From Brevundimonas poindexterae (GTDB lineage Bacteria > Pseudomonadota > Alphaproteobacteria > Caulobacterales > Caulobacteraceae), in assembly GCF_020524625.1 (NCBI RefSeq), contig NZ_JAIVLL010000002.1, forward strand, positions 248,001 through 312,000: a DNA stretch of 64,000 bases, written 5' to 3'. Position 1 is the first letter of the stretch. Every line of letters starts with the position of its first letter. A program made the position numbers and the translations under genes. Below the pieces are notes generated by a model. The model did not search any database, was not told the DNA's origin, and worked only from the letters and a program-made list of their open reading frames with translations. Below, one piece after another: positions 49,896 through 61,184 of this stretch.

Positions 49896-52859
49896 CTAGC
49901 GCCCCGCCGCCGCCCGTTCCTGATTCAGCGCGAACAGCCGCTCCAGAACCTCATCGTCCGACAGGTCGGCGGGCCAGCCATAGGCAGCGGCGACCGCCTC
50001 ATCCAGCCGCTTGTGGGCCATTTCCAGCCAGGCCGGACGCTGGTTGTAGAGGTTGGTCAGGGTACGGGTCTTCAGCACCTTGGCCGCCTCGTCGCTGACC
50101 GGCAGGATGCGGTCGGGATAGCCGGGCACGACCTCGGGCTCGATCCGCACCAGATCGGCCGGATTCAGCCACGCCTCGCGCAGGTCGTTCAGTTCCTTGG
50201 CCGCTTCCGCGATGGCAACCGCGCGCGGATCGTCGGCGTAGTCGGCAGCCGGGATGTTGGGCGTTAGCCTCTCGGGGAAGGGGAAGGTCGCGAACACGCT
50301 AGTGTGAGTATAGCGCGGGCGGTCTTGGAGATCAGACCCCTTCCGCAAAGCCCAAAGCGCATGGGGGCGACTATGGAGAATTCCGAACGTCACGTCGTCT
50401 TCTCTAGGAATGACGATCAGGTTCTTGTCGGGAAGCACCGGCGGCCTAAGCCAAACGAATAGGCGGTGCACCGCCGTCTCCGGCGTGGCGATGTACCTAT
50501 AGAGATCCCTGATGCGCGCTCGCATTTCGGGACGCGGCCAATGCGGTTCCCACCAACGGGGGCCGGCGCGTTCGCCTAAGTCGTGACGGAGCTCGCGAAC
50601 GTGCTTTCCGTCCTCGTCGGGAGTGGATTCGATATACTGGAATGGCTTCTCGAACTGCGCCGCAGTTCCTTCAGCGAGGCCCAACGGGAGATCGATGAAC
50701 CAGACATCCCGAGGCCGCCCTGTAACGTCGTCGCCATTCCAATATGGCCGCAAAATCTCAGCATTCGCTTGGCCGTTCGGATTCGTCGGTGCGGCCATCC
50801 AGGAGCGGGCCAGCCCTCCATTAATGTCGAATGGTCCGCTCTTTTGAATGCCAAGGAACGCAGCGTCCCGGTTCTCCGAAAGTGGCAGTGTTTGCGTCAA
50901 GTCCAAACCCGAAGTCAGGTCCGAGTTGATGCTGGCGACCACCGTTCCGTCAAGGTAGGTTGCGGACTGTGAGCGACCAAAGCAGACAAGGGAAACGTCT
51001 ACGGCGGCACCCTCAATCGTCCACTTTTCTTCGCTCCACGCATCGAAGATTCGCGTCGTTGAGACAATATTCCGCATCACGGGAAGGTTGGTGTTCTTCC
51101 GGATCGAGTTTGTCGCCACATATCCTGCCGCTTGAACACGCCCGTCCTCAATCATCTCACGGGCCTTTTCGAACCAGTAACAGACTAGGTCGGTGAACCC
51201 TGGCAGCTGGTCGTAAACGGCACGAATGGCCTCTGTCGTGTCCGCGCCGAGCTTTCGCTTCATGAGTTTCGCGCCGACATACGGCGGGTTCCCGATGATC
51301 GCATCCGCCGCCGGCCACGCCGCCTCCGTCCCGTCCGGGTTCAGCAGCGCATCCCGGTTCTCGATCTGCTCCAGCTTCGTCAGGATCGGTTCGGCATAGG
51401 CCGAATAGCCGTTCTTGCGCATCCACTGCAGGTCGCCGATCCACAGCGTCACCCGGGCCAGTTCGGCGGCATAGGCCTCGATCTCGATGCCGCGCACACA
51501 GTCCAGCCCCACACGCGGCGCCGGGGGCGGGACGCCCGCCGCCCGCTCGGCGTCGATGATGGCCCGAAGCTCCAGGTCCTTCAGGGCGTGCAGCGCCACA
51601 TAGAGAAAGTTGCCCGAGCCGCAGGCCGGGTCCAGCACCCGATAGGCAGCCAGCCGCGACAGGAAAGCTTCCAGCCGATCCTTCGCCGCGCCAAAGGCCG
51701 CACTCCGGCGGCGGGCGATGGCGCTCAGCTTCTTGCGCCGCCCCGCCTCCCCGGCCTTCGCCGCCTGCGGGTCGACCTTCATGGCCTCGCCTGCTGCATC
51801 CATGATGGCGCGGCGTTCTGCATCGGCGGCCTTCATGGCCTGGCCGTGCGCCTTGATCTCGGCCAGAGCCGTTTCCCACTCTGCCGTCAGCGGACGGACA
51901 ATCACCGGATCGACGATCTTCAGAATCTTCTCACGATCGGTGTAGTGCGCGCCCAGCGCCGCGCGCTGGCGTGTGGCCTTCAGCGCCTCCTCGAACAGAG
52001 TGCCGAACACCGCCGGGTCGATCTCGGACCAGTCGTGCTCATCGGACGTGTCGCCGATCAACTTCAGATCGCCCGCTTCCAGCGGCAGGGCGGGCGCTTC
52101 GTCGAACAGGCCCCCGTTGAACCAGTGGATGGTGTCGACCCCGAAAAAGCCCCCCGTGCGCATTGTGGAAAACAGCTGTTCCAGCTGAACGCGCGCCTGC
52201 TCGGGTCGTCGCTCCGTGTTGCGGATCAGCCGGGTGAACAGCTTGGCGGGCAACAGTTTGGCGTCTTCCGCAAACATGCAGAAGACCAAGCGATTCAGGA
52301 AGTGGGCCACGTCACGTGGCGGATGTCCCCGGTCTTGCAACCGCCGCCCCAACTCGCCGAACCTCTGCGCGACCTTGGCCGTCAGCTCTTGCGGGCTGAC
52401 CGAGGGTTTCAGTCGCTCCGACCCTTCGAACACCTGTCGCAGCAGATCCAGTTTTGCCGGCTCGCGCAGGTCCTCCAGCGACAGTTCGATCACCCGGCTG
52501 ACGGTGTTGGTCCAGTTCGTGTGGATCACGATCCGGGCCATGTCCGACACGACCAGATAGGGCGGACTCTCCAGATTGGAGGCGTAGATGGTCAGCTGGC
52601 GATAGGCGGCGTTCAGGTCCTTGTGCGGGCCCTTGTACTCCCAGCCGAAACAGCCGCGACGCCACACGTCGGCCCAGCCGTCGCCTCCACCCGCCTTGGT
52701 CGCGCCCCGCTCGAAACAATAGCGCTCGCCATGCGGATCGTCCTCGGCGGGAGTCGGCTGCCTCAGCAGCCGGCACAGGTCGATGAAATGCTCCTGCGAC
52801 CCCTGACGCTCGCGAAGCGTCGCGTCACTCCACTTGTCGATGAATTCCGCTGGCGTCAC
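49896..52859 (-). CDS. MmeI-like (type IIL) restriction-modification enzyme
   Basis: A 987-residue single-chain enzyme that should both cut and methylate DNA. The GTG at 52859 after GGGGAC is preferred to a TTG at 52913, and gives the family start VTPAEFI. The N-terminal nuclease has Asp64-X9-Glu74-X-Lys76 (VWRRGCFGWEYK), exactly the MmeI spacing. A helical spacer follows, then the N6-adenine methyltransferase with DPACGSGNF (410-418) and NPPY (524-527). Next come the target-recognition region and the C-terminal domain. From NPPY to residue ~860 the DNA is clearly AT-richer than both flanks, indicating a swapped recognition module. No separate restriction or specificity subunit is present. 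Confidence 0.9.
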   Translation of the reverse strand: MTPAEFIDKWSDATLRERQGSQEHFIDLCRLLRQPTPAEDDPHGERYCFERGATKAGGGDGWADVWRRGCFGWEYKGPHKDLNAAYRQLTIYASNLESPPYLVVSDMARIVIHTNWTNTVSRVIELSLEDLREPAKLDLLRQVFEGSERLKPSVSPQELTAKVAQRFGELGRRLQDRGHPPRDVAHFLNRLVFCMFAEDAKLLPAKLFTRLIRNTERRPEQARVQLEQLFSTMRTGGFFGVDTIHWFNGGLFDEAPALPLEAGDLKLIGDTSDEHDWSEIDPAVFGTLFEEALKATRQRAALGAHYTDREKILKIVDPVIVRPLTAEWETALAEIKAHGQAMKAADAERRAIMDAAGEAMKVDPQAAKAGEAGRRKKLSAIARRRSAAFGAAKDRLEAFLSRLAAYRVLDPACGSGNFLYVALHALKDLELRAIIDAERAAGVPPPAPRVGLDCVRGIEIEAYAAELARVTLWIGDLQWMRKNGYSAYAEPILTKLEQIENRDALLNPDGTEAAWPAADAIIGNPPYVGAKLMKRKLGADTTEAIRAVYDQLPGFTDLVCYWFEKAREMIEDGRVQAAGYVATNSIRKNTNLPVMRNIVSTTRIFDAWSEEKWTIEGAAVDVSLVCFGRSQSATYLDGTVVASINSDLTSGLDLTQTLPLSENRDAAFLGIQKSGPFDINGGLARSWMAAPTNPNGQANAEILRPYWNGDDVTGRPRDVWFIDLPLGLAEGTAAQFEKPFQYIESTPDEDGKHVRELRHDLGERAGPRWWEPHWPRPEMRARIRDLYRYIATPETAVHRLFVWLRPPVLPDKNLIVIPREDDVTFGILHSRPHALWALRKGSDLQDRPRYTHTSVFATFPFPERLTPNIPAADYADDPRAVAIAEAAKELNDLREAWLNPADLVRIEPEVVPGYPDRILPVSDEAAKVLKTRTLTNLYNQRPAWLEMAHKRLDEAVAAAYGWPADLSDDEVLERLFALNQERAAAGR

Positions 52860-52979
52860 GCCGTCCCCGATTCTCTTGGTCCGCACACTCGCCCGCTGCG
52901 TCGGCGAAGCCAAGAGGCGACGGGGGTTGATCGTGGGCGAATCGCGGTAATGTTCCGCCTCTGTTCACGGAGGACCCTC

Positions 52980-53263: not shown

Positions 53264-55492
53264 ATGGCCCGTTCTCCCCGATCGTCGCGTTCCGTCACCG
53301 GTGTGTCCGAGGCGTCCGTCGCCTTTGCAGGCGCCTCTGCCGCCCCCGGAAACCTGCCCATGTTCGCGCCGGTCACCGGGCCGCGCCTGACGCCCGAGGA
53401 GGCGCCGGGCGCCCCGGCCGACTGGGTGCCGCACAGGCCCTCGCGCCCGACGGACAAGGTCTCGCGGCCCTTCCGGCTGGAGACCAAATACACCCCCGCC
53501 GGCGACCAGCCCGCCGCCATCGCCGAACTGGTGGTCCAGGCGGCCGAGGGCGAGCGCGATCAGGTGCTGCTGGGCGTGACCGGCTCGGGCAAGACCTTCA
53601 CCATGGCCAAGGTCATCGAGCAGACCCAGCGCCCGGCCCTGATCCTGGCCCCGAACAAGACCCTCGCCGCCCAGCTGTACAGCGAGTTCAAGGCCTTCTT
53701 CCCCGACAACGCCGTCGAGTATTTCGTCTCGTACTACGACTACTATCAACCGGAAGCTTATGTCCCGAGAACAGACACTTACATTGAAAAAGACTCGTCC
53801 ATAAACGAGCAGATCGACCGGATGCGGCACGCGGCGACGCGCGCCATCCTGGAGCGGGACGATGTGATCGTGGTGGCCTCGGTGTCGTGCATCTACGGCA
53901 TCGGCTCGGTCGAGACCTATACGGCCATGACCTTCACCCTGAACGTCGGCGACCAGATCGACGAGGCCAAGCTGCGCGCCGACCTGATCGCCCTGCAGTA
54001 CAAGCGCAACGACCTGACGTTCGAGCGCGGCATGTTCAGGAAGCGCGGCGACACCATCGAGATCTTCCCCGTCCACCTCGAGGACCGCGCCTGGCGCCTC
54101 AGCCTGTTCGGCGACGAGATCGAGGCCATCCACGAGTTCGACCCCCTGACCGGCAAGAAGACCGCCGACCTCGACACCATCACCGTCTATGCCGCCAGCC
54201 ACTACGTCACCCCGCGCCCGACGCTGAAACAGGCCATCGACGGCATCAAGGCCGAGCTGAAGGAGACGCTCGACTGGATGAACGAGAACGGCAAGCTGCT
54301 GGAGGCCCAGCGGCTGGAGCAGCGTACCCGCTTCGACCTCGAGATGATGGAGGCCACCGGCGCCTGTGCCGGCATCGAGAACTACAGCCGCTGGCTGACC
54401 GGCCGCGCGCCCGGCGAGCCCCCGCCCACCTTCTTCGAATACATCCCCGACAACGCCCTGCTGTTCGTCGACGAAAGCCACGTCACCATCGGCCAGATCA
54501 ACGGCATGTTCCGCGGCGACTACAAGCGGAAGTCCACCCTGGCCGAATACGGCTTCCGCCTGCCCTCCTGCATCGACAACCGCCCGCTGAAGTTCGAGGA
54601 GTGGGACGCCATGCGCCCCCAGACGGTCCATGTCTCGGCCACCCCCGGCCCGTGGGAGATGGCCCAGACCGGCGGCGTCTTCACCGAACAGGTCATCCGC
54701 CCCACCGGCCTGATCGACCCGCCGGTCGAGATCCGCCCTGTCAGCGACCCCACCCGCAACCAGGTCGATGACGTCATCGATGAGGTGAAGGCCACCGCCC
54801 GCGCCGGCTACCGCTCGCTGGTCACCGTCCTCACCAAGAAGATGGCCGAGGACCTGACGGAGTACATGCACGAGCAGGGCGTCCGCGTCCGCTATATGCA
54901 CTCCGACGTCGACACCCTTGAGCGGATCGAGATCCTGCGCGACCTCCGCCTCGGCAGCTTCGACGTGCTGATCGGCATCAACCTGCTGCGTGAGGGGCTC
55001 GACATCCCCGAATGCGGCCTGGTCGCCATCCTCGACGCCGACAAGGAGGGCTTCCTGCGCTCCGAGACCTCGCTGATCCAGACCATCGGCCGCGCGGCCC
55101 GCAACGTCGACGGCCGCGTCATCCTCTATGCCGACAAGACCACCGGCTCGATGGAGCGCGCCATCGCCGAGACCAACCGCCGCCGCGAGAAACAGGTCGC
55201 CTACAACACCGAACACGGCATCACGCCCGAGTCCGTCCGCCGCGACATCAAGGAGATCCTCGCCAGCCCCTATGAGAGCCGCGCGATGGACCGCCTGACC
55301 GCCCCCGGCCTCAAGGAAGAGGCCAAACCCTTCACCGGCTCCAACTTCCAGGCCGCCCTCAAGGACATGGAGTCAAAGATGCGCGAGGCCGCCGCCAACC
55401 TCGAGTTCGAGGAGGCCGCCCGCCTTCGGGATGAAATCAAACGCATGAAACTCCTCGATCTGGAGTTCGCGCAGGACATGATTTCATCCTGA
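53264..55492 (+). CDS. uvrB: UvrABC system protein B
   Basis: A 742-residue helicase-like repair protein that loads at lesions with UvrA and recruits UvrC. Walker [10 protein letters not shown] (about 107), the beta-hairpin block [24 protein letters not shown] and helicase motifs through IGRAARN are intact, with the UVR motif near the C-terminus. The N-terminus carries about 65 extra residues before the usual [12 protein letters not shown]. The last codons ([13 protein letters not shown]) are encoded by an inserted segment: a second, divergent copy of the original tail follows at 55560. The product is still full length and probably functional. Confidence 0.95.
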
Positions 55493-55559
55493 GGCGACGC
55501 GCAGCGGCGCCCCTGCGCGACGACCCGGAGCGAAGCGGAGGGCGGTGGAGCGCGCAGCG
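55493..55559. repeat. Inserted palindromic segment after uvrB
   Basis: A 67-bp GC-rich segment lies between the new uvrB stop and the old tail. It contains GCGACGCGCAGCG / CGCTGCGCG-type palindromic pieces and GGAGCGAAGCGGAGGGCGGTGGAGCGCGCAGCGCGG, a short-repeat style common in Caulobacterales intergenic elements. It explains the displacement of the uvrB 3' end. Confidence 0.7.
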
Positions 55560-55712
55560 CGGAACCAGATCAAGAAGATGAAGGCCCTCGACCTGGAATT
55601 CGCCAACGAAATGCTGACCGGCGCCGGCGAAGAGGTCGACAAGTCCGCCCCGAAGCGCTGGCGCGCCGAAGCGGCGGCCGAGAAGGCGGAGGCGTTCCGG
55701 AAGGGGCGGTAG
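55560..55712 (+). pseudogene. Displaced ancestral uvrB 3' end
   Basis: This stretch codes, in a frame shifted by one relative to uvrB, for RNQIKKMKALDLEFANEMLTG followed by KRWRAEAAAEKAEAFRKGR and a TAG at 55710-55712. It parallels the uvrB codons for [18 protein letters not shown] at a constant 133-bp offset. It is therefore a remnant of the original gene end, cut off by an insertion that supplied a substitute UVR tail. No start codon serves it. Confidence 0.8.
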
Positions 55713-55733
55713 GGGGGCTCGGATTCCGCTAGA

Positions 55734-56825
55734 CTAATAGAAAGTGGGAGGTCCGATCATATCTGCAGCTGTCAAAACGAATTCTTTTTCCTGCAGCTTG
55801 GCTGCAGATTTGATATCCATAGATAGCCCTACGAGTTTGTAGCAGTATTCGTTGCAAACGATTAGTGCGTCTCGTCCGCTCTTGCTGTATTCTACGTAGC
55901 TTTTAAGCGATGCTTTTATACCTTCTTCATCGCGGTACGCGATGAGTTTTTTGGGTGGGCTCCGAACCGAGCCGTCCGCCGCCAGCAAGGGAAGGTGAAT
56001 GGTCGGAAGGAGCTTCCCCCCCGGTCCTTTCAGGCCTTTCAGTTCTGCAAAATGGTGTTCTTGGCTTTGAGATACAGGCGCCACATGCACGACATGGTTT
56101 CTGAGATCGCTCAGCTCCCGAAGCCACCCTTCTGTGGTGCTTTTCAAAACTGCCACGACAAGTGGATGATCTACTGTTTTTGCGTGTTTTCTAAGCCCCG
56201 CAATGCTGGTAATATCGGGAGTCTCGCGCTTCAGTAATACCCGCCAAATTGTCTCTGCCAATACGTCTCGAAATGCTGAGGCATCAGAGAGAAATGCATG
56301 GACGGCTGCGTCGATATAGGTGGTCCACCCGTTGTCGAAGTGGTTTCCGATTTCTGTTGGAGAAGGCCTCGAAACCGCAGAATGCAGACTTTGATTGTAC
56401 GCCTCGCTAAGCTGCCTAAGTCGTATTGGGAGCAACTTTAGATAGGTTCTGATCTTCCCAGCCAGCAGTGTCAGAACGTAATCTGAACTCCCATTCGCGG
56501 CGTGCTTAACATTGCTCCATGATCGCTCGGCATGCAGGTCGTAGAATCCAAAGCCGGATCGGTATGCACGCCAGTCGGGTGGCTCTACCTCCGCGAAAGC
56601 GTGGTTTTGGATAAAGTCGACACCCAGCACCTCAAAGCCAAAATTTTGAAGCGCACCGTAAAGATTCGCATACGGGGGCGTCTTGAAATGCCCAAGCCGG
56701 TGGTCTGGGCCTACTTCAATCCAGACCTTTTCATCGTTTAAGTCGACTGCTCTGAGGCCTCCGCTTAGGTGTATTATCCTTAGAGCAGGAACCCTTTTTG
56801 TTGGGGGGCTATCGGGGGTAGTCAA
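55734..56825 (-). CDS. HEPN-like protein of restriction-modification cassette
   Basis: A 363-residue protein, strikingly AT-richer than the surrounding genes and with atypical codons, so probably acquired. Residues 238-250 (LSDLRNHVVHVAP) contain Arg242-X4-His247, the ribonuclease motif of HEPN domains, within a helical region. The N-terminal part is unassigned. The TTG at 56825 is the only reasonable start and lies four codons after the MT-A70 stop, in the same frame. Position as third gene after a nuclease and methyltransferase suggests an abortive-infection-type role. HEPN assignment is by motif only. Confidence 0.65.
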   Translation of the reverse strand: MTTPDSPPTKRVPALRIIHLSGGLRAVDLNDEKVWIEVGPDHRLGHFKTPPYANLYGALQNFGFEVLGVDFIQNHAFAEVEPPDWRAYRSGFGFYDLHAERSWSNVKHAANGSSDYVLTLLAGKIRTYLKLLPIRLRQLSEAYNQSLHSAVSRPSPTEIGNHFDNGWTTYIDAAVHAFLSDASAFRDVLAETIWRVLLKRETPDITSIAGLRKHAKTVDHPLVVAVLKSTTEGWLRELSDLRNHVVHVAPVSQSQEHHFAELKGLKGPGGKLLPTIHLPLLAADGSVRSPPKKLIAYRDEEGIKASLKSYVEYSKSGRDALIVCNEYCYKLVGLSMDIKSAAKLQEKEFVLTAADMIGPPTFY

Positions 56826-56837
56826 TGGCCGCTCACA

Positions 56838-57485
56838 TCATTCCGCCGCCACTGCCGAGTTGTACGCATACGTCTTCCATGTCGGCGCATAGGTCTCGTC
56901 CGCCTGATTGCCCCAGACGGCCCAGCCGGGCCGTTCGCCGCGCGCGAACAGTTCAAGGTATGGGCCGGGGCTGCACCGTTCGACCAGATCGTACTGCTCG
57001 TCCGGTTTGCGGCTGTGTTCGCGCTTGCGGGTCTGGATCATATTGACCTGGCTGCGACCGGGGGCCTCGGTGCGGGCGTTCTTGCCGCGCGTTCCGAACA
57101 GGATCAGCTCGGTCACATTGCGAAAATAGAAGCCCACACCGCGGCCGTCTGAGCCGCCGTCCTTGCGGATTTTGTGCCAGACCAGATTGGATTTGTACTG
57201 GAACCCCCAGGCCTCCATGACCCTCAACCCTTCGGGCAGGAGGGCGTTGGGCACCCACATGTAAAGGTGGGCCGTATCCTGCGAGACCTCAGCCACCGGC
57301 AGGGCGCAGATATCGTCCAGCGTCATAGTCGGATAACGGTTCAGCCGCTTGTGCTCAGGCGCGACCTTGCCGGTGCGGTTCTGAAACTGCCAAGGCGGGT
57401 CGGCGAGGATGGTGCGGAACCGACGATCTCCTGCGAACCGCCGCAGATCGCATGCGGCATCCGAAAGCTGTGAATCATAAGCCAT
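56838..57485 (-). CDS. MT-A70 family DNA N6-adenine methyltransferase
   Basis: A 215-residue methyltransferase. The catalytic DPPW motif is in ILADPPWQFQNRTG (about residue 30). FFRNVTELILFGTRGK, RKREHSRKPDEQYDLVERCSPGPYLELFARGERPGWAVWGN complete the MT-A70 fold. It is smaller than eukaryotic METTL3-type enzymes, as usual for phage and bacterial DNA methylases. It is the middle gene between a BglII-like nuclease and a HEPN-like protein. The product most likely protects DNA from that nuclease; the recognition site is unknown. Confidence 0.9.
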   Translation of the reverse strand: MAYDSQLSDAACDLRRFAGDRRFRTILADPPWQFQNRTGKVAPEHKRLNRYPTMTLDDICALPVAEVSQDTAHLYMWVPNALLPEGLRVMEAWGFQYKSNLVWHKIRKDGGSDGRGVGFYFRNVTELILFGTRGKNARTEAPGRSQVNMIQTRKREHSRKPDEQYDLVERCSPGPYLELFARGERPGWAVWGNQADETYAPTWKTYAYNSAVAAE

Positions 57486-57521
57486 AGGCGACCCCGCATT
57501 GCGAAGGAATCAGTCCTGCGC

Positions 57522-57560
57522 GTTACCCACGGTAACGTTGATGTAGGCCGAGAGCCTACA
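57522..57560. promoter_or_regulatory. Two inverted repeats between nuclease and methylase genes
   Basis: GTTACC-CAC-GGTAAC (57522-57536) and TGTAGGC-CGAGA-GCCTACA (57542-57560) are perfect inverted repeats with 6- and 7-bp arms. They lie 37-75 bp upstream of the methyltransferase ATG. In restriction-modification loci such sites often bind a controller or the methyltransferase itself, allowing early methylation before nuclease build-up. No separate controller gene is visible. Confidence 0.6.
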
Positions 57561-57628
57561 GGGTTCTTACTTTGTTCCGGAAAAAATGTCTACGCACTGG
57601 ATACGCGATTGATACGGAACTGAGCCGG

Positions 57629-58438
57629 TCAGTCTGCGACGCAGCGCGGAGTGATACCGAATACCAGCACCGGGCAGGCGCCATTTCGCCCTGCGTTCAG
57701 GCGGTACAACAGCTTGCCCATCCATGTGGTGCTGGCGCCGTACTTGCCGGCTGTAGGGCGCGGCTTGCCATCCTTGGTTTCTACTTTTCCGCTCTTGGTC
57801 AGGGCTGGGCCCAAGCCCCGAATGAAGTCGGTCATCTCAGTGCCCCGAGTCACCAGAACGCCTACGTCGATCACACCGGTCTGGGCAAAGGCACTGAAGG
57901 CGTACAGGTCGCGGTCGAAGGTCTGATCCTTGCTATTCCACTCGAGATCGAACGCAACCTTGCCCTTCACGTAATCGACCTTGTGGCCATCCAGGTATTT
58001 TTCTCGCTTGATGATTTCCGGATCTGTCTTCTCGAACCGGGGCTTGGCCAATGGTCTTCCCGATTTGCCAACAGTCACAAACCTCTTGGAAATTTTCTGG
58101 ACGTGAAGATCGCCACGAATGATTGTCTCGCGCCAGTCCTTGGGCCGAAGGGCCGCTGACAACAGCTTTGGGATTTCGGACTCATTGCCGCCAGCCGTGC
58201 GGATCATTGTTTCGGTGATCTCGAAAGCCCTGAGTGCGTCGCAAAGCTCCGCAAACTCCCCCGGGTGGCTCTCGGCGAGGATGGTCGCCGCGCTGCGGTA
58301 GCTATAGACCTCGTACTTCTGCAGTAGGTCTGGCGGGATCTTGGCGTCCACCAGCCGCTGAGGGTCAGCGGCTTCGCTCGGCTTCATTGCGACTTCGTCG
58401 CGGGAAACCTCGTCCTCGAAATCGTCTTCTTCGGCCAT
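57629..58438 (-). CDS. BglII/BstYI-family type II restriction endonuclease
   Basis: A 269-residue nuclease. From the ATG at 58438 a short acidic leader is followed by a helical N-terminal half. The catalytic segment DYVKGKVAFDLEWNSKDQTFDRDL contains Asp155, Glu166, Asn168 and Lys170, corresponding to the Asp...Glu-x-Gln active site of BglII. The longer frame upstream has no support. It is the promoter-proximal gene of the cassette with the MT-A70 methyltransferase 143 bp downstream. Recognition sequence is not predictable, but GATC-containing sites are the rule in the family. Confidence 0.85.
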   Translation of the reverse strand: MAEEDDFEDEVSRDEVAMKPSEAADPQRLVDAKIPPDLLQKYEVYSYRSAATILAESHPGEFAELCDALRAFEITETMIRTAGGNESEIPKLLSAALRPKDWRETIIRGDLHVQKISKRFVTVGKSGRPLAKPRFEKTDPEIIKREKYLDGHKVDYVKGKVAFDLEWNSKDQTFDRDLYAFSAFAQTGVIDVGVLVTRGTEMTDFIRGLGPALTKSGKVETKDGKPRPTAGKYGASTTWMGKLLYRLNAGRNGACPVLVFGITPRCVAD

Positions 58439-59068
58439 CGTAGGAAGGTGCGCCGGATTCCATCCAAAGTTCAAGCAAGGGCAGTTGCACGCCCACCCAA
58501 CACCCCCAACCATCCGCACCGCCCCCCATTTCCCCCGCCCTTTCAACACCCCTCCCGCTTCTCGCACCGTTTTGCTCGCCCGGGTCGGGGGGTGTGGCAG
58601 GCTGCTCGGGTCCCGTCGCGGGGGAGGGCGCTCGGCCGGCGTTCGATGCGGCGGCGGGAGCGGATGGAGCGGGGCTTGTTTGCTTGGCCTATCGCTCGCG
58701 CCGCGGGCGCTCGCTGCTTGAGGCCGTTTGGTCGCGGGCTACGGGTAAACCTCGCGGATGCGAGCCGGGTCAGAGCCAGCAAGGCCGACACCACCCCGCC
58801 TCCGGGTGCGGGTGACGTCGAAGGGTCGGGGGGGATACCCGGCCGGTCCAGGGAAGGCGCCGCCGGCGCCTCCTGCCCGCCGGGGGCGCTGCGGTAAGGC
58901 CCGAACACGGCCACCCGACGCAAGCTCCCGGAAAACCGTCTGCGCGGGGCGTCAGTCTTCGTCGAAACGGTATTCCATAGAAACTCCGGGCGAAGGCCCG
59001 GCGTCCCGCCGCCCTCCCCACCGCTGCCGGAAACGGCAGGGGCGTAGAGGCATGTCCGTTCCCGAACT
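58439..59068. other. Gene-free repeat-rich stretch
   Basis: About 630 bp carry only overlapping, weakly biased frames. The stretch holds the second copy of the 31-bp dispersed repeat (58693-58723), a GGGCGAAGGCCC hairpin (about 58989-59000) and GC-rich short repeats. No gene, RNA or terminator was recognised. The left part next to the nuclease gene is CT-rich (CCCCCA/CCCGCCC), which could be an mRNA leader. Confidence 0.6.
58693..58723. repeat. 31-bp dispersed repeat, intergenic copy
   Basis: This copy differs at two of 31 positions from the one within thiD (43509-43539) and lies in the same orientation on the plus strand. It starts CGCTCGCGCCGCGG and ends GCTGCTTGAGG. Being outside any gene, it shows that the repeat is a mobile or amplified sequence rather than thiD-derived. 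Confidence 0.7.
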
Positions 59069-59215
59069 CCTCCCCCCTCGGGGGAGGGGGACCGTCCGCA
59101 GCCCGCAGGGCGAAGGAGGGTGAAGGGGGCAGCGCCGCCGTCTGCCACTCGGGCGCCGATGCCCCGCGTCGGCCCCCTCCACCGCTTCGCGGTTCCCCTC
59201 CCCCGAGGGGGGAGG
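59069..59215. repeat. REPIN/MITE-like palindromic element, copy B
   Basis: A 147-bp element with 25-bp terminal inverted repeats (59069-59093 and 59191-59215) that differ at one position. Each end forms a local CCCCC-TCG-GGGGG-type hairpin, and ACCGCTTCGCGGT makes an inner hairpin. It is the same family as copy A at 28.9 kb, sharing the GGGGGAGGGGGACC / GGTxxxCCCCTCCCCC pattern. It has no coding capacity. Confidence 0.85.
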
Positions 59216-59256
59216 AATGACCGCCCTGCCCTCCTTCCCGAAAAGGATCCCCGCCC

Positions 59257-59445
59257 ATGCCGCATCCCCGACCGGCCCGTCCGGCCCCTGACCCGGAAGA
59301 CGACGGCTCCCCGGAGGAGCTGGAAGCCCTGCGCGCCGAGCTGCGCGACCGGATGGCGCATCATCAGGCCGCGGTCGCGCGCCTGCTGGCCCACCGCGCC
59401 GCCGGCACAGATCCCTGGCGTTCCCCTCCCCCACCCGCCGCTTGA
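59257..59445 (+). CDS. Small hypothetical protein
   Basis: A 62-residue protein starting at an ATG preceded by AAGGATCC. The Pro-rich ends surround a helix (SPEELEALRAELRDRMAHHQAAVARLLAHRA). It lies 53 bp before the amidohydrolase gene and could be its leader partner or a separate short gene. No family known. The Pro/Ala-rich ends are composition-driven, so reality is uncertain. Confidence 0.45.
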   Translation: MPHPRPARPAPDPEDDGSPEELEALRAELRDRMAHHQAAVARLLAHRAAGTDPWRSPPPPAA

Positions 59446-59498
59446 CCTGAGGCCGCAACGGTTGCACCCCGGTCGCCCGATCTGACGGAGGCGACCCC

Positions 59499-61184
59499 AT
59501 GCGCGCGACCATCCTTCCTTGTGCCCTTTCGGCCCTGCTGCTGGCGGTGCCCGGCGGGGCGCTGGCCCAGGACATGCTGATCCGGGGCGGGCCGGTTTAC
59601 ACGGGCGTCGAGGCAGCGCCCTCGGCCGAGGTGGTGCTGGTGCGGGACGGGCGGATCGCCTTTGTCGGGGCGGCGGCGGACCTGCCCGATCACGCCGGGG
59701 TGCCGGTCGTGGACCTGAAGGGCGCGGCCCTCTTTCCCGGCTTTACCGACGGCCATGCGCATCTGGACGGCATCGGCGCGCGCGAGATGACGCTGAACCT
59801 CGAGGGCGCGGCCTCGGTGGCCGAGGCCATGGCGCGGCTGGAGGCCTGGGCGGTAGCGCACCCCGAGGGGCCGATCATCGGCCGGGGCTGGATCGAGACC
59901 CACTGGCCCGAGGGGCGGTTCCTGACGGCGGCCGATCTGGATGCGGCGGCGCCGGGCCGGTTCGTGATGCTGAGGCGCGCCGACGGCCATGCGGCCGTGG
60001 TTTCGACCCCGGTGCTGGACCTGTCGGGCATCGATGCCGGGACGGTGGCCCCGGAGGGCGGCGAGATCCTGAAGGGGCCGGACGGGCAGCCGACCGGCCT
60101 GCTGGTCGATGCGGCCATGGGCCTGCTGCGCGCGCCCGAGGGCTATCGGGACTCGCCCGCTGCCCCGCGCGAGGTCTATCGCGCCGGCTTTGCCGTCTAT
60201 GCCCGCTATGGCTGGACCGGCCTCCATTTCATGAGCGCGCCCTGGGGGGATGTGCCGCTGCTGGAGGAGATGGCCGAGGCGGGCGAGGCGCCGATCCGCG
60301 TCTACAACAGCGTGACGCCCGACGGGGCGGCCGCCCTGTTCGCCTCGGGCCCGCGCTCGGTCGCCGACGGGCGGGTCATCACGCGGGCGGTCAAGATGTA
60401 CGCCGACGGGGCGCTGGGCTCGCGCGGGGCGGCGCTGTTCGCCCCCTACTCCGACCGGCCCGACACCACGGGCCTGATGCAGATGACGCGCGAGGAGGCC
60501 GTGCCGGTCTATGAGGCGGCGCTGCGCTCGGGCATCCAGGTCGCGACCCACGCCATCGGCGATCGCGGCAATGCCTCGGTGGCCGAATGGTACGCCGAGG
60601 CGCTGGAGGCCGTGCCGGCGTCGGAGCGTCCGAACGGCGCGGATGTGCGCTGGCGGATCGAGCATGCGCAGATCCTGCGGCCCTCGGATTACCGCTGGTT
60701 CGTGGACCTGCCGACCATCGCCTCCATGCAGCCCAGCCACGCGATCGGCGATCTGCATTTCGCCCCGGCCCGGCTGGGCGATGCGCGCCTCGACGGCGCC
60801 TATGCCTGGCACAGCCTCGTGGACCTCGGCGTGATCGTGGTCGGCGGCTCGGACGCCCCCGTCGAGCGCGGCGATCCGGCCATCGAATTTTATGCCGCCG
60901 TGGCGCGCCGCGACCTGTCGGGCTTTCAGGGCCCCGACTGGCGGCCGGACGAGGCCGTGGACCGGATGACGGCCCTGCACATGTTCACCCTGTGGCCGGC
61001 CTATGCGTCCTTCCGCGAGGACGAGCTGGGCACCATCGAGGTCGGCAAGCGCGCCGACTTCACCGCCTTTGACATCGACCTGATGACCGCGCCCGAGGCC
61101 GAGCTGCCGAACGCGAAGGCCGTGCTGACCATCGTCGACGGCGAGGTCGTCTACCGCGCGGAAGACGACACCAGCAGGCCCTGA
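59499..61184 (+). CDS. Secreted amidohydrolase, YtcJ-like
   Basis: A 561-residue exported amidohydrolase. A signal peptide (to about residue 24) leads to the metal-binding start FTDGHAHLDGIG (HxH, about 85-90). The core has GWIETHWPEGRF, the metal-ligand-rich GALGSRGAALFAPYSD, HAIGDRGN and GGSDAPVE, and a C-terminal composite beta-sandwich returns to the N-terminal strand. This is the YtcJ-type (amidohydrolase 3) subclass, which hydrolyses C-N bonds of unknown natural substrates. The 3' end overlaps the convergent gspM by 34 bp. Confidence 0.9.
   Translation: MRATILPCALSALLLAVPGGALAQDMLIRGGPVYTGVEAAPSAEVVLVRDGRIAFVGAAADLPDHAGVPVVDLKGAALFPGFTDGHAHLDGIGAREMTLNLEGAASVAEAMARLEAWAVAHPEGPIIGRGWIETHWPEGRFLTAADLDAAAPGRFVMLRRADGHAAVVSTPVLDLSGIDAGTVAPEGGEILKGPDGQPTGLLVDAAMGLLRAPEGYRDSPAAPREVYRAGFAVYARYGWTGLHFMSAPWGDVPLLEEMAEAGEAPIRVYNSVTPDGAAALFASGPRSVADGRVITRAVKMYADGALGSRGAALFAPYSDRPDTTGLMQMTREEAVPVYEAALRSGIQVATHAIGDRGNASVAEWYAEALEAVPASERPNGADVRWRIEHAQILRPSDYRWFVDLPTIASMQPSHAIGDLHFAPARLGDARLDGAYAWHSLVDLGVIVVGGSDAPVERGDPAIEFYAAVARRDLSGFQGPDWRPDEAVDRMTALHMFTLWPAYASFREDELGTIEVGKRADFTAFDIDLMTAPEAELPNAKAVLTIVDGEVVYRAEDDTSRP

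Follow-up and report, generated by a model that had tools for sequence, protein, structure and literature searches.

Three consecutive genes in Brevundimonas poindexterae, encoding a restriction nuclease, an adenine methyltransferase and a protein with an RNase-type motif, raise the question of whether they form one defence system or two that share a location. In the window, by which we mean the whole stretch of 64,000 nucleotides that was analysed, all three open reading frames lie where an earlier note, made from the letters alone, had placed them, one behind the other on the minus strand: first the nuclease, then the methyltransferase, then the third gene. The restriction-modification (R-M) pair comprises the following features:

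57629-58438, minus strand: type II restriction endonuclease of the BglII/BstYI family, 269 aa (PF09195, Endonuc-BglII, 152 bits, E 1.5e-44)
57935-57976, minus strand: predicted catalytic stretch of the nuclease, D155 ... E166-x-N168 (residues invariant in homologues)
56838-57485, minus strand: adenine-N6 DNA methyltransferase of the MT-A70 family, 215 aa (PF05063, 100.6 bits; PADLOC MTase_II, 316 bits)
57390-57401, minus strand: DPPW catalytic motif of the methyltransferase (read in the translation)

The assignments that had been proposed for these two genes are borne out by the profile matches, the nuclease scoring far above the PF09195 cut-off of 26 bits and adjoining a DNA adenine methyltransferase that carries the DPPW motif. 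The nuclease frame opens with an ATG at 58438, which gives 269 aa, and has an alternative, longer start at a GTG at 58567. Its residues D155, E166 and N168 are unchanged in 12 aligned homologues and, by analogy, would form a PD-(D/E)XK active site; the methyltransferase presumably protects the site that the nuclease cuts. Homologues of the nuclease found on plasmids are 25-68% identical and mostly annotated as BglII/BstYI family; others occur in 25 IMG/VR contigs and, at the family level, in 29 of the 385 genomes of the class. The complete pair was found at 41 loci besides the window (plasmids, viral contigs and genomes of the class). Over the 42 loci, window counted, the gene order varies (nuclease first, methyltransferase first, or convergent), and the frames of same-strand pairs mostly overlap or almost touch, as against a gap of 143 bp in the window. 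Judged by its sequence, the pair is thus an ordinary and widespread type II R-M system. The idea that a two-gene cassette underlies the locus is upheld by congener G800, where the pair (83% and 86% amino acid identity) sits beside uvrB at the same chromosomal spot without the third gene.

The third gene, which starts 12 bp behind the methyltransferase, is less easily placed. Its features are:

55734-56825, minus strand: third gene, 363 aa, TTG start; predicted N-terminal alpha/beta part followed by a helical bundle, HEPN-like (AlphaFold model; relatives)
56085-56102, minus strand: R-X4-H motif of the third gene, R242-N-H-V-V-H247, at the end of helix 234-248 in the AlphaFold model

Its GC content is 0.509 and its GC3 0.52, compared with 0.586 and 0.72 for the nuclease, 0.627 and 0.77 for the methyltransferase, and a GC3 of 0.92 for uvrB, so that it is the most AT-rich of the three. 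The compositional foreignness attributed to it is therefore real, with the addition that the pair, too, departs from what is typical of the host: all three genes are foreign in composition, the third gene most. A sigma-70 scan, which may not suit this host, found no sigma-70-like promoter on the operon strand. Searches of Pfam, PADLOC, NCBIfam and PDB sequences gave no match for the third protein, and on these comparisons the gene belongs to a small, undescribed and unnamed family.

Is the third protein a HEPN protein? The most conserved feature of that superfamily is R-X4-6-H, in which the residue after R is usually N, D or H (PMC3710099). The R-X4-H motif that had been read in the third gene is present, and its R and H are unchanged in 10 of 10 aligned relatives, which are 19-35% identical to the window protein; the form R-[N/D]-x3-H, with N or D after R, is kept in all the relatives found (about 11 lineages). 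The AlphaFold model (pLDDT 77, pTM 0.80) consists of the N-terminal alpha/beta part and then a bundle of long helices. Because the motif is invariant and the model puts it where a long helix of a helical bundle ends, the third protein is likely to be HEPN. The description HEPN-like can accordingly be kept as far as motif and predicted helices go, but neither fold nor profile searches gave a significant HEPN match. Foldseek comparison of the full model with PDB and viral structures yielded no significant match, none with E < 0.04, and a search with the core alone none with E < 0.34. The HEPN toxins 6m6u, 8yuf, 5yep and 8xeh were within the top 50 of the core search, none significantly, 6m6u having the highest probability in that top-50 list (0.35). 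Against HEPN_RiboL-PSP, Apea-HEPN and Abi_C, profile-profile comparison (hhalign) gave no significant result and scored like a decoy; the best local alignment with HEPN_RiboL-PSP falls on the R-X4-H motif, with a score no better than the decoy's. With HEPN_Cthe2314 the class sample yielded a single match, below threshold.

The third protein might alternatively be no RNase at all, being a helical DNA- or protein-binding accessory, an orphan, or a degraded HEPN protein with a binding role only. The lack of a significant fold or profile match is what this would lead one to expect, and some HEPN families are indeed non-catalytic (PMC3710099). However, a binding role does not sit well with a motif whose R and H stay invariant, with N or D after the R, at such low overall identity, nor with the mobile and defence-rich surroundings of the relatives, and we regard it as improbable, though not negligibly so.

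These surroundings bear directly on whether the third gene belongs to the pair. A single-sequence scan of the genome contigs gave no match to the third gene, an alignment-based scan gave five relatives, and no relative was found in the phage records. Alpha-, Beta- and Gammaproteobacteria have members of the family, as do a cyanobacterial plasmid and an inovirus-like contig. On the Trichormus plasmid the relative adjoins VWA, PP2C and kinase genes, an arrangement that we take to resemble a TerY-P triad; on an Acinetobacter plasmid it lies amid toxin-antitoxin genes, and a second Acinetobacter and Limnobacter each have a relative. A CcdB toxin gene is found 35 bp from the Rheinheimera relative, convergent with it (L074 7124-7441), and another near the Methylomonas relative (L073 7908-8222); in genome G709 the relative is near a transposase. 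In a Porticoccus MAG it adjoins Fic, Bro-N and a methyltransferase-like fragment, which has no Pfam match and reads like a DNA methyltransferase gene broken off after its beginning. Another relative is cargo of an inovirus-like viral contig (L162 4911-6086), which encodes filamentous-phage proteins (a single-strand DNA-binding protein and an Ace-like minor head protein), and adjoins a phage transcriptional regulator there. In the congener G797 a relative with 36% identity forms a solo insertion of low GC. No relative was found beside a BglII/MT-A70 pair, and the ORF lists read, that of G797 included, show no small gene that repeatedly accompanies the family as a partner.

Seen from the side of the pair the result is the same. 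The family profile of the third gene finds it at 0 of the 41 other complete pairs, and within the genus PF09195 occurs in 8 of 131 genomes and the third gene in 2 of 131, the two coinciding in the window's genome only. The third gene had been called fixed behind the methyltransferase; with co-occurrence counted, relatives never beside the pair and the congeneric relative solo, that description does not hold. There is no recurrent linkage, which for this gene is the outcome that the earlier note had named as refuting its idea, and the evidence does not support a three-gene system of fixed composition. In this respect the locus is fairly ordinary, because the relatives show the third gene to be independent of the pair. 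We also discarded a part for the third gene as target-recognition or control subunit of the R-M system, since all the other pairs surveyed lack it.

What then brought the genes together? The chromosomal surroundings suggest an answer, for which the following features are needed:

53264-55492, plus strand: uvrB, left host flank (87-99% identical in congeners)
55718-58505, no strand assigned: inserted low-GC segment between uvrB and the amidohydrolase gene, containing the three genes and no others (borders from DNA comparison with sister genomes)
59499-61184, plus strand: amidohydrolase-like gene, right host flank (87-89% identical in G063 and G660, where it lies on that side of uvrB too)

Aligned with the DNA of the sister genomes G063 and G660, the window loses its match at about 55709-55717 and regains it at 58506 (G063) or 58893 (G660), that is, around the three genes, which therefore make up the insertion exactly. 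At the same place G660 has an OLD/AriA-like ATPase with DpnI, and in G063 the place is taken by an HD-domain hydrolase together with a small partner; next to uvrB, G803, G649 and G822 have DndB-like proteins with MT-A70, and G764 has a DUF4145 gene, an MT-A70 remnant and, further on, a DpnI-like gene. Since sister species hold other defence genes there, the site between uvrB and the amidohydrolase gene is a hot spot for defence cargo. It is compact, and sister species swap whole defence cassettes in it (BglII/MT-A70, DpnI + ATPase, DndB-like, HD hydrolase), which makes it useful for finding further new defence genes.

Several other observations were made at this variable defence hot spot, which adjoins uvrB within one genus (window 55493-59498; L142, L143, L154-L158). 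DpnI cuts Gm6ATC. The DpnI-like nuclease of G764 is accompanied by a truncated MT-A70 gene (L158), and the DpnI of G660 by none; this may be why cargo is swapped, for DpnI would not be compatible with an active adenine methylase of GATC. In five congeners (L142 2308-2934; L154-L157) the foreign cargo is directly adjoined by a helix-turn-helix gene that looks like one for the small subunit of a phage terminase, and so is the solo third-gene insertion in G797 (L165 9019-9819); the window does not have such a gene. At the 3' end of uvrB, at 55480-55570 of the window, there is a palindrome-rich insert of about 80-100 bp, also present in G063 and absent from G660, which shortens UvrB to 742 aa compared with 769 aa in G660. 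G803 encodes, in the same hot spot and convergent with MT-A70, a protein of 785 aa that combines a Card1-like nuclease domain with DndB/DpdB-like domains (L155 1332-3689), the C-terminal part of which contains a HEPN-like stretch, 'FNDIRNVAAH'. Just upstream of uvrB, at 49896-52913 of the window, is an MmeI-like type IIG restriction-methyltransferase (PADLOC REase_MTase_IIG, 983 bits).

The reading that we prefer, with a probability of about 0.62, is that of an ordinary R-M pair and an independent, probably HEPN, abortive-infection gene that share a defence hot spot. A short DNA site, expected by analogy with BglII/BstYI to contain GATC, would be cut by the BglII-like nuclease wherever the MT-A70 enzyme had not methylated an adenine within it. 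The third gene would be independently mobile and most likely encode a HEPN-superfamily RNase of the abortive-infection type, in which the N-terminal domain would sense infection and a dimer would then use R242 and H247 to cut cellular or phage RNA. Both defences would share the locus and probably a transcript, and neither would need the other. Against such independence it has to be said that a functional operon would be expected to look the same in its 12-bp spacing and shared strand.

That spacing and strand, together with the inclusion of all three genes in one inserted segment, could also be produced by a true triad, in which the R-M pair keeps the third protein inactive and RNA is cut when restriction fails or the DNA is unmodified, like PrrC with PrrI. 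HEPN-superfamily or Abi genes also stand directly behind MT-A70 at two other loci. On plasmid pZM22-2 of Comamonas resistens, an Abi_C gene (PF14355), whose product carries a HEPN-type R-N...H stretch, lies 15 bp behind the MT-A70 gene of a complete pair on the same strand; in G764, at the same hot spot as in the window, it is the DUF4145 gene that lies behind the truncated MT-A70, and DUF4145 is a HEPN family (PMC3710099). However, these genes belong to families different from that of the window, the third gene is missing from the 41 other pairs and from G800, and all its relatives, the congeneric solo copy in G797 among them, are without the pair. A gated backup of the PrrC kind is possible, but linkage gives it no support, and a true triad appears quite unlikely to us. 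The same two loci can be read differently, the slot behind MT-A70 repeatedly taking unrelated HEPN-type RNases (the window family, Abi_C and DUF4145) and the methyltransferase or the nuclease gating the RNase as a backup, of whichever HEPN family it is. Were this so, the window locus would be a young, still two-part example with an undescribed HEPN family; we give the idea just as little credence. Least probable is that the third gene encodes an addiction toxin whose antitoxin has gone unseen, or for which the MT-A70 protein serves as antitoxin, for although HEPN proteins are commonly toxins and several relatives lie near toxin-antitoxin genes, the ORF lists read show no small partner recurring next to them and the G797 copy is a solo insertion.

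The preferred reading, a routine R-M pair beside an independent third gene, can be set against known systems. Compared with other type II R-M systems of the BglII/BstYI family with MT-A70, the window has both genes with conserved catalytic residues, differing in the 143-bp gap instead of the usual overlap and in the extra gene behind. The earlier note knew of no named system combining R-M and HEPN genes; however, a paper of 2013 had already linked at least 16 clades of HEPN to R-M systems and proposed the backup-RNase mechanism itself (PMC3710099). Like the members of that group, of which PrrC-PrrI is the prototype (PMC3710099), the window has an R-X4-H helical protein beside R-M genes, with the same proposed second-line role; unlike PrrC, its third protein has no PrrC-type ATPase domain, the linkage of its family with the pair is seen once, and its HEPN fold is likely at most. 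The Abi_C gene of the Comamonas plasmid is likewise close behind MT-A70 on the same strand, but it is of a different family, the window protein having no Pfam match and no alignable similarity to it. The DUF4145 gene of G764 matches the third gene in its strand and in lying between uvrB and MT-A70, but again belongs to a different family, in a genome where the locus has no nuclease and a truncated methyltransferase. What is new at the window locus is thus the unnamed family of the third gene, by its sequence a small and probably HEPN defence family spread across several lineages, together with its inovirus-like carriage and the hot spot in which it was found.
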